A stretch of DNA of 64,000 nt from an uncultured Oscillospiraceae bacterium (GTDB lineage: Bacteria; Bacillota; Clostridia; Oscillospirales; Oscillospiraceae), in assembly GCA_947625285.1 (NCBI GenBank), contig CANQNS010000004.1, forward strand, positions 1 to 64,000, in the 5' to 3' direction. Positions 180-39,398 of the stretch are shown one piece after another. The notes beneath the pieces are model-generated. The model saw nothing but the letters and a program-made list of their open reading frames with translations. It made no database searches and was not told the origin of the DNA. The position numbers and the translations under genes are program-made. Each line of letters begins with the position of its first letter. Within the stretch, counting starts at the first letter, position 1.

Positions 180-200
180 GACCCTCCCGTCGGGAGGGTC
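180..200 (-). terminator. Rho-independent terminator downstream of the acyltransferase gene
   Basis: Perfect inverted repeat GACCCTCCCG-T-CGGGAGGGTC followed on the minus strand by TTTCTATAAAAAATTT. Confidence 0.7.
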
Positions 201-227
201 AGGCGCAGAATCGATGCTTGCTGATCA
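201..227. repeat. 27-bp direct repeat copy 1 (duplicate of sleB 3' end encoding KHRFCA-stop)
   Basis: aggcgcagaatcgatgcttgcTgatca; matches 1526..1552 at 26/27 positions. Confidence 0.85.
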
Positions 228-274: not shown

Positions 275-1387
275 TCACGCTTTGCAGGTCCATGCGCGAA
301 GCTTCTCGCGGGCCTTTCTTTCCAGCAGCAGCGCGATGGAGCTCACCCCGGTCAAAGCGGCGATGTAGACTGGAAGTATCTTCCAGTACTCGACCCCCGG
401 CGCAAACTGCACCAGCAGTTGACAGAGGATCAAATGCAGCAGGAACATCCAATAGTTGATCGCTCCCAGCCATGCGACGGCTTTTCGGAGGATCTGGTTC
501 CTATATCCTTGCTCGCGCCTATACGACAGTATGACAAATAGGACGATCAGGAAGAAACTGAAGAAATCATTTTTATCCGCACCAAACCAGTGCATCGTCA
601 TGAGCAGCATGGCAAGCGCCCCGATCTCCACTGCGCCGACCAGGAAATTTGCAGCCTTTCCACGCGCCGCGAAGCTCTGATGCCGGTCATTACAGCCGGG
701 TCTTGCCACGACCTCATAGAGATAGACGCCGAGAGACATTTCAGAAAACGCCCTCAGCACCGCACCGTACAGCCATCCCTCCCATGCCTCCTGCATAGAC
801 AGAGAGCCGTACGTTTCATAGATATGCACGAGAATGAACAGCGACACGACCGGGCAAATGCCCACGAATAACCGCTTGTTGTAAGAAAGGAGAAAGTAGA
901 TCAAAAATGACAGCAGCACAAAGGGAGACAAAAACCATATGCTTCGCATCTCATAGGAGATGCCCGGCCCCAGGTAGTGCAGGAACAGATACTGCCATTT
1001 CGTTTCGTATACATGCCAGACGAGCCACGATAATGACATCCCGTTATTAACGAACCGGATCGCCACCATCAACAGTATCGCGCAAAGATACGGCGGGTAC
1101 AGGCGTTTTAGCCGGCAGATCAGATAATCCCTCGCCTGGATCACGGGAGACTCGTCCGTTTTATGCCGGTCATAATGCTGCGCTAAGAACAGCCCTCCGA
1201 CCAGAAAGAAGAAATCAACGCCCAGGTACCCTCCCGGCCAGGGGGCGGAAGAGCCGGTATAGTCCTCATTAAAATGCAGCACGGCCACCGACAGGATCAT
1301 GATATACCGCATGAACTCCAGGTCCAGATTCCTCTTCCGGCCCAAATCGTTATTTCCTTCAATAACACATCTCATACGGCGCCCCAC
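275..1387 (-). CDS. Acyltransferase family 3 (OafA/OatA-like) membrane protein
   Basis: 370 aa, multi-TM; N-terminal LEFMRYIMILSVAVLHF and GYLGVDFFFLVGGLFLA typical of acyltransferase-3 family; GTG or downstream ATG (1375) start. Confidence 0.8.
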   Translation of the reverse strand: MGRRMRCVIEGNNDLGRKRNLDLEFMRYIMILSVAVLHFNEDYTGSSAPWPGGYLGVDFFFLVGGLFLAQHYDRHKTDESPVIQARDYLICRLKRLYPPYLCAILLMVAIRFVNNGMSLSWLVWHVYETKWQYLFLHYLGPGISYEMRSIWFLSPFVLLSFLIYFLLSYNKRLFVGICPVVSLFILVHIYETYGSLSMQEAWEGWLYGAVLRAFSEMSLGVYLYEVVARPGCNDRHQSFAARGKAANFLVGAVEIGALAMLLMTMHWFGADKNDFFSFFLIVLFVILSYRREQGYRNQILRKAVAWLGAINYWMFLLHLILCQLLVQFAPGVEYWKILPVYIAALTGVSSIALLLERKAREKLRAWTCKA

Positions 1388-1434
1388 CAGCCACAGCGCG
1401 CTATGCGCTGTGTAACGTTCTTAAAGGTTTGTTA

Positions 1435-1463
1435 ATAGTAGCACACTTACCCCCCCCCGTCAA
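1435..1463 (-). promoter_or_regulatory. Predicted sigma-A promoter with G9 tract inside the spacer
   Basis: Minus strand TTGACG (1463-1458), 17-nt spacer containing the G run, TACTAT (1440-1435). Confidence 0.65.
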
Positions 1464-1485: not shown

Positions 1486-1529
1486 GCCTAAAAAGCGGGT
1501 CTGTGTATACACAGACCCGCTTTTTAGGC
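1486..1529. terminator. 44-bp perfect palindrome acting as sleB terminator (overlaps sleB stop codon)
   Basis: GCCTAAAAAGCGGGTCTGTGTATACACAGACCCGCTTTTTAGGC. Confidence 0.75.
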
Positions 1530-2192
1530 GCAGAATCGATGCTTGCCGATCACAGTCAGCAGCGGCCGGGACCAGATCCACTTGCTGGTTGCCGTGGCCG
1601 GGTTGAAATAATAGATGGCGCCGCCGGACGGATCGGAGCCGTTAATGGCGTCCCGGGCGGCCTGGTAGGCGCTGTTCGCCACGGGCTTCCAGAACTGGCC
1701 GTCCTGCAGGCAGGAGAACGCCCCGGACTGGTAGATCACGCCGGAGATGGTGTTGGGGAACGCCGGACTCTTGACCCGGTTCAGCACCACCGCGCCCACG
1801 GCCACCTGGCCGGAATAGGGCTCCCCTCTCGCCTCGGCGGAGATAAGCCGGGCCAGCAGGTCCGTATCGCCGGAGCTGCTCTGGCTGGAGGCGGTCACGT
1901 TGATGCCCAGCGCCGCCAGAGTCTTGGGGCCGCACTTGCCGTCCACGGTCAGGCCGTTCTTCCTCTGAAAATACTTCACCGCCTCCACGGTCTTGGAGCC
2001 GTATACCCCGTCCACTTTGCCGGAATAATAGCCCCAGCGGGACAGCTTGTCCTGTATGGTAGTCACCGTTGAGCCGGTGGAGCCCTTCTGATAGGTGACG
2101 GCGTCGGCTATCTGGATGAAGCCGATGATGAATATATTGACGATGAACACGATCGCCACAGCCGCCACCAGCTTCTTTTCTGCTTTGCTCAT
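1524..2192 (-). CDS. sleB: Spore cortex-lytic enzyme SleB-like cell wall hydrolase (PG-binding + Hydrolase_2)
   Basis: 222 aa; signal/TM anchor, PG_binding_1 (GSTGSTVTTIQDKLSRWGYYSGKVDGVYGSKT), LLARLISAEARGEPYSGQVAVGAVVLNRV motif. Confidence 0.88.
   Translation of the reverse strand: MSKAEKKLVAAVAIVFIVNIFIIGFIQIADAVTYQKGSTGSTVTTIQDKLSRWGYYSGKVDGVYGSKTVEAVKYFQRKNGLTVDGKCGPKTLAALGINVTASSQSSSGDTDLLARLISAEARGEPYSGQVAVGAVVLNRVKSPAFPNTISGVIYQSGAFSCLQDGQFWKPVANSAYQAARDAINGSDPSGGAIYYFNPATATSKWIWSRPLLTVIGKHRFCA
1526..1552. repeat. 27-bp direct repeat copy 2 (native sleB 3' end)
   Basis: aggcgcagaatcgatgcttgcCgatca; 26/27 identical to 201..227. Confidence 0.85.
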
Positions 2193-38600: not shown

Positions 38601-39356
38601 TTACATCTTGTACCCCCCCCGGATTTCTGGGTCCTCTGTCCAGGCGTGGACCACCACCCGGTCCGGCGTCAGCTCTACCCGGCGGATAGCCATATGTTTG
38701 CGGAATTCCCGGCGGTCCCTGGCGCTGGGCATCTTCTCCACATCATACAGGAAGCTCACATTGCGCTCGGCGGAAATGTCCAGTTCATCCGCTAGACAGA
38801 GCAGCGCCGCCAAATAGGGCAGGCTCACCGTTTTTCCCGGCTCCACCTCAAATCGGGGCGGGTAGTTCTTCTCGTCCAGAAGATCCGTCTTCCGGTGTCC
38901 CCGGCAGACCTGGATCACAGCCTTTGCATAGGCTTCATTTGGAAAATCCAGCAAACGCCAGTACTTTTCCAGATACAGCCCGGACAATTCCTGGTGGTGG
39001 TCCCGTACGGCCCAGGCCCGGGCGTTATCATCCGCCGGCTCTGGAAACCCCAGTACCTCCCGAAACTGTTCAAAGTCCGATGCAGACACTCCCATGCCCA
39101 CATCATGGAACAGCGCGCCCATCAGCAGCACGTAGAGGTCTTCTGCGGTGAGCTTCTCGATCTGGCTGCCAATGAGCTGATTGCACAACTCTAAAATATC
39201 CAGGGAATGCAGCACCGTATGATCGGTAAAGTCAGGAAAGTAGTTCTCATACCGGCTGAGCATCTTCTGTGAGATCACCACGCAGTCCCGATACCGGCTG
39301 TGAAGTTCCGGCGCGCATCGGGCCAGTCTGCGCTCAATGCCATAGTCCTGTTCCAT
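38601..39356 (-). CDS. HD-domain protein (probable phosphohydrolase fold); 3' end apparently frameshifted at an 8-G tract, extended frame to ~38480
   Basis: ALFHDVGMG, DHTVLHSLDIL, HHQELS, LCLADELDIS; start MEQDYGIERRLARC with upstream GGAGG. Confidence 0.8.
   Translation of the reverse strand: MEQDYGIERRLARCAPELHSRYRDCVVISQKMLSRYENYFPDFTDHTVLHSLDILELCNQLIGSQIEKLTAEDLYVLLMGALFHDVGMGVSASDFEQFREVLGFPEPADDNARAWAVRDHHQELSGLYLEKYWRLLDFPNEAYAKAVIQVCRGHRKTDLLDEKNYPPRFEVEPGKTVSLPYLAALLCLADELDISAERNVSFLYDVEKMPSARDRREFRKHMAIRRVELTPDRVVVHAWTEDPEIRGGYKM
38613..38620 (-). repeat. Homopolymeric G8 tract near 3' end of HD gene
   Basis: Plus-strand tacccccccc-gg; frame continues as VQDVTSKLRDKLLMCRRVAAERSSFVITQADVLLHMEKPEETEP* if one G is added. 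Confidence 0.8.
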
Positions 39357-39398
39357 CACGATTCCTCCATTCGCTCCTCTCCCCTTGCCGCCCGGCAT

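Follow-up and report, generated by a model that had tools for sequence, protein, structure and literature searches.

A G9 tract in the -35/-10 spacer of a predicted acyltransferase promoter as a candidate contingency element in an Oscillospiraceae bacterium

The familiar examples of contingency loci built on poly-G tracts come from Neisseria, Campylobacter, Helicobacter and Treponema. The window analyzed here, a stretch of 64,000 nucleotides from an uncultured Oscillospiraceae bacterium, carries a run of nine guanines in an apparent promoter upstream of an acyltransferase gene (Table 1), and this raises the question of whether such a run is a switch or merely the fixed spacer of an ordinary promoter. 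On balance, the acyltransferase gene probably has a sigma-70-type promoter of its own, with the G9 run as a contingency tract between -35 and -10 where slippage would tune transcription, although considerable doubt remains.

The promoter and its G9 tract

Read directly, the minus strand from 1463 to 1435 is TTGACG-GGGGGGGGTAAGTGTGC-TACTAT. The sequence-only reading of this locus, which placed the two hexamers 17 nt apart with eight Gs in the spacer, is therefore exact, and its remark that the run is the longest homopolymer of the window also holds, the runner-up being a C8 at 38613-38620. In the whole 2.06-Mb genome, runs of nine or more Gs number only six, the one in the promoter among them. 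As in a spacer-type SSR, a homopolymer able to slip lies between -35 and -10, with eight of its nine Gs occupying the 17-nt spacer.

The significance of this arrangement was assessed in shuffles of the flanks that left the tract intact, with a TTGACA-like hexamer (at least 5/6), a TGn element and a TAnnnT hexamer required to pair at 15-19 nt. Under such shuffling, the architecture appears at the G9 site with a frequency of 0.00033 (0.033%); across the genome there are 18 tracts with eight Gs or more, and two of them show the same design, against 0.0024 expected. The architecture of the G9 promoter is thus beyond chance. The hexamers alone are not exceptional, because a plain consensus scan of 2.2 kb returned four promoter-like sites, the G9 promoter included, against 1.4 in shuffles. 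What is exceptional is the position, the TGn element and the tract taken together.

Table 1. Features of the acyltransferase locus and the second long G tract of the window
Feature	Position	Strand	Remarks
Native sleB terminator	180..200	-	now behind the acyltransferase gene; directly after sleB in relatives
27-bp direct repeat, copy 1	201..227	+	repeats the sleB 3' end; distal end of the insertion
Membrane acyltransferase gene, Acyl_transf_3 (OafA/OatA type)	275..1387	-	370 aa from GTG
Predicted 5' leader	1388..1428	-	8-bp hairpin (CACAGCGC/GCGCUGUG); z -2.4
-10 hexamer TACTAT	1435..1440	-	ATAGTA on plus strand; extended -10 with TGC just upstream; 17-nt spacer
G9 homopolymer	1450..1458	-	C9 on plus strand; followed by TAAG; eight Gs inside spacer
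-35 hexamer TTGACG	1458..1463	-	CGTCAA on plus strand; 5/6 to TTGACA; last G is first base of G9 tract
Perfect palindrome, 44 bp	1486..1529		22-nt arms, no loop, T/A runs at both ends
sleB, spore cortex-lytic enzyme	1524..2192	-	upstream gene and insertion site; TIGR02869, E 8.8e-87
27-bp direct repeat, copy 2	1526..1552	+	the sleB 3' end itself; 26/27
Second tract of the class, G8	38613..38620	-	followed by TAC; truncates HD-CE gene 38601-39398 (-)

A species-specific insertion behind sleB

On the minus strand, the genes and elements follow one another as thrS, sleB, the 44-bp palindrome, the promoter, a short hairpin leader and the Acyl_transf_3 gene. The palindrome, which includes the stop codon of sleB as well as the insertion junction, is absent from the output of a terminator scan that requires a loop. 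It probably terminates transcription in both directions and so insulates the promoter from sleB. As it would probably halt sleB transcripts, the acyltransferase would need a promoter of its own, and the gap from the palindrome to the gene offers no consensus promoter other than the G9 one.

The downstream gene, read from the sequence alone as an OafA/OatA-like acyltransferase, encodes an Acyl_transf_3 protein (PF01757, E 1.7e-16), with 60.6 bits against a curated cut-off of 31 and a match over profile positions 2-319 of 326; NCBIfam gave no match for the protein. As a putative OafA/OatA-type enzyme, it may modify a surface glycan or peptidoglycan. The ATG at 1375, which stands behind GGTGGGG, is a likelier start than the GTG. 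Additionally, Rfam gave no match in positions 1-2400 of the window.

Promoter and acyltransferase together form a species-specific insertion of about 1.3 kb after sleB, flanked by the 27-bp repeat. In three congeners (G241, G243 and G010) the site is empty, and the terminator and the next promoter come immediately after the end of sleB. The unit is present in no other congener among the 35 genomes searched, and no locus homologous to the G9 promoter locus was found among these or among 396 genomes of the order. Homologues of the acyltransferase reach at best about 26% identity in 40 relatives; at E 1e-25 there are none in the 396 genomes of the order, and none were found in plasmids. Because congeners have empty sites and the unit was found in no other genome searched, gene and proposed switch look like one acquired unit. 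No recombinase gene lies inside this unit (201-1552).

Long G tracts as a class

Long G tracts in the genome of the window differ from shorter runs in their flanks. Where a run has eight Gs or more, the next base is T in 15 of 18 cases, compared with 88/354 for runs of five or six (Fisher 7e-7), and TAA follows 7/18 compared with 0/354, the shorter runs having been counted in 133 kb that include regions picked for long tracts. By this signature, unlike that of G5-6, long G tracts are a distinct class, of which the promoter G9 is a member. In six genomes of two lineages, namely the genus and one other of the same taxonomic class, a T comes next in 119 of the 137 G8-12 tracts (87%), and the commonest tract length is nine (83/137). 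Moreover, GGGGGGGGTAA outnumbers its reversed control by about 45 to 2 in the genus and by 16 to 1 in the other lineage, while the two are roughly balanced in the rest of the taxonomic-class sample. Most genomes of the phylum or family that were examined have no clear asymmetry of this kind, and in two Helicobacter genomes the base behind the listed tracts of eight or more Gs is T in only about half of the cases; the bias was therefore rejected as a general trait of phase-variable G tracts. This lineage-specific bias is the most novel element of the finding. A bolder and rather unlikely proposal is that the genus and the other lineage have in common a sequence-directed process which creates or preserves pyrimidine-G8/9-T(A) tracts, in coding and non-coding DNA alike, as dedicated switching sites, and that the promoter tract would be one of its products.

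Members of the class often lie in surface-glycan or surface-protein genes, and many of them sit near the starts of open reading frames. For instance, four tracts of the window's genome are gathered in about 13 kb of sequence inside a sugar-biosynthesis region, whose genes encode a hexose dehydratase, an epimerase, an ATP-grasp protein, an acetyltransferase, a PIG-L protein and a formyltransferase.

Tract lengths differ between related copies. In the second lineage, homologous tracts with 90-100% identical flanks read G8/G9, G12/G9, G9/G8 and G9/G10 between species, and the tandem short open reading frames of genome G013, apparently peptide precursors, carry tracts of 9, 9 and 10, with another pair at 9 and 10. 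Genes are out of frame at many tracts, although the totals of ON and OFF states are rough, since at least one locus (L237) was miscalled. In the window itself, the G8 tract cuts short an HD-CE gene whose homologue in G009 stays in frame and is about 43-44 residues longer. Tracts of the same kind with changed length or a disrupted frame, as far as rough frame calls tell, are thus found in this organism or its close relatives.

Several further arrangements were observed. Eight short open reading frames of G013 (L085, L081, L079, L080, L247, L254, L258 and L263) follow the pattern MSEEKKIQ-RGG-VTPEQ...GG, like the leaders of peptide precursors, and each has G9-12 near codon 9; their frame states are mixed. 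Proteins of 300-400 codons in the same genome (L084, L082, L078 and L243) have G9-11 near the 3' end, where the tracts lead to alternative C-terminal tails of about 20-30 residues. A repeat family, CCTTTCTCCGACATTTGTC-G9-TAATTTTAATAATTTAAAAAACGCGG, occurs in G055, G090 and G145 (L278, L284, L287, L289, L291, L293 and L301), with a tract length of 9, 10 or 12 among its copies.

Switch or fixed spacer

The sequence-only reading went further and proposed that the promoter is phase-variable. Its promoter part is supported by the position of the site as the sole candidate in the gap, directly past the probable terminator, and by the 17-nt spacer. Slippage draws its support from the sequence context, that is, from the genus-wide class of G8-12 tracts, from length differences and from frame disruption elsewhere. 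Similar promoters also exist in the genus. A second one in the window's genome (G000:C9), for which no orthologue was found in the genus, reads TTGACG-16-TGC-TACAAT with G8, and in the congener G020 a TTGACA-19-TAATAT promoter with G9 lies 63 nt upstream of the ATG of a choline-binding surface protein. Phase variation is likely because the G9 tract belongs to a wider, length-varying class and because spacer promoters of this type recur in the genus. In a separate observation, two related copies in G013 (L211 and L262) have G9 just upstream of a strong TTGACA-TATAAT promoter.

The best-surviving alternative, possible but doubtful, is constitutive transcription from a promoter with a G-rich spacer that is either fixed or subject to neutral drift, G9 being a long, non-switching version of TTGACG-Gn. 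The tract could indeed be fixed promoter sequence, as its first G belongs to the -35 hexamer and the other eight lie within the spacer. Several relatives have TTGACGGGGGG with a credible -10 some 17 nt further on, in one case in front of an apparent tRNA gene (L062). Shorter TTGACG-G6 promoters are also present in the genus, and one of them keeps G6 in two species (L054 and L057). Because this promoter is constant, a G-rich spacer alone does not make a switch; such spacers can be static. However, a tract of 9 Gs belongs to a length class that is rare in the genome (six tracts), is marked by distinctive flanks and shows length differences at other loci.

It is quite improbable that the tract length is an artefact of assembly or sequencing. 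Homopolymer lengths are hard to call, assembled ones may deviate by one, and deep sequencing in Bifidobacterium breve disagreed with the reference (PMC9187656), but a modal length of nine and a T-after bias common to six genomes are not expected from errors.

An action in translation is hardly credible and was mostly rejected. A GTG at 1482 opens a mini-ORF, MQKYEKLDGGG*, in which G9 puts the TAA after the tract in frame, so that length changes would alter a leader peptide, and the location of many tracts of the class near the starts of reading frames agrees with this. Nevertheless, the mini-ORF is without a clear ribosome-binding site, sits immediately after the probable terminator, ahead of the predicted transcription start, and is joined to the acyltransferase at no tract length, as the matching frame (G10) has an intervening TAA. 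A G-quadruplex at G9 was rejected, since one G run by itself cannot form such a structure.

If the tract is a contingency element, replication slippage would add or remove Gs, and the spacer would follow, measuring 16 nt at G8, 17 at G9 and 18 at G10. Transcription would come close to its maximum with the present nine Gs and drop at other lengths, and the outcome would be a stochastic, reversible tuning of surface modification.

The wider interest lies in a Clostridia-type genus with dozens of tracts in genes for glycans, surface proteins and apparent peptide precursors. If the proposed role is correct, hypermutable surface variation would reach a little-studied Gram-positive branch, and the arrival of a new gene together with a spacer switch would illustrate how these switches are spread. 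Additionally, because the T-after-tract bias is lineage-specific, comparisons can be used to test how contingency tracts originate.

A literature search found no report of such tracts for this lineage, which is not proof of absence, and the nearest parallels come from elsewhere. The pilus genes of B. breve, another gut Gram-positive, contain slipping G-tracts, and the authors mention tracts in promoter spacers (PMC9187656); the main cases there are coding, however, and the organism belongs to the Actinobacteria. The poly-G phasome of Helicobacter canadensis has tracts in three kinds of position, within promoters, close to the beginnings of genes and close to their ends, the last causing C-terminal switching (PMC2823697). 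All three positions are also found in the genus of the window, although length ranges were seen in reads in H. canadensis, whereas the present tracts are known from assembled sequence. The two other Helicobacter genomes differ in their flanks, with T after about half of the listed tracts, against the much higher share in the genus and the second lineage. The closest likeness is to two promoters with poly-G between -35 and -10, porA of Neisseria meningitidis, whose activity is best at 17 nt, and tp0126 of Treponema pallidum, with top transcription at 17-nt spacing (PMC7864442). The former drives a Gram-negative porin gene for which switching was shown experimentally, and the latter, tested with reporters, serves an OmpW-like protein. 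By the logic of both, best at 17 nt, the G9 form found here would be the high state, and G8 and G10 the lower ones.
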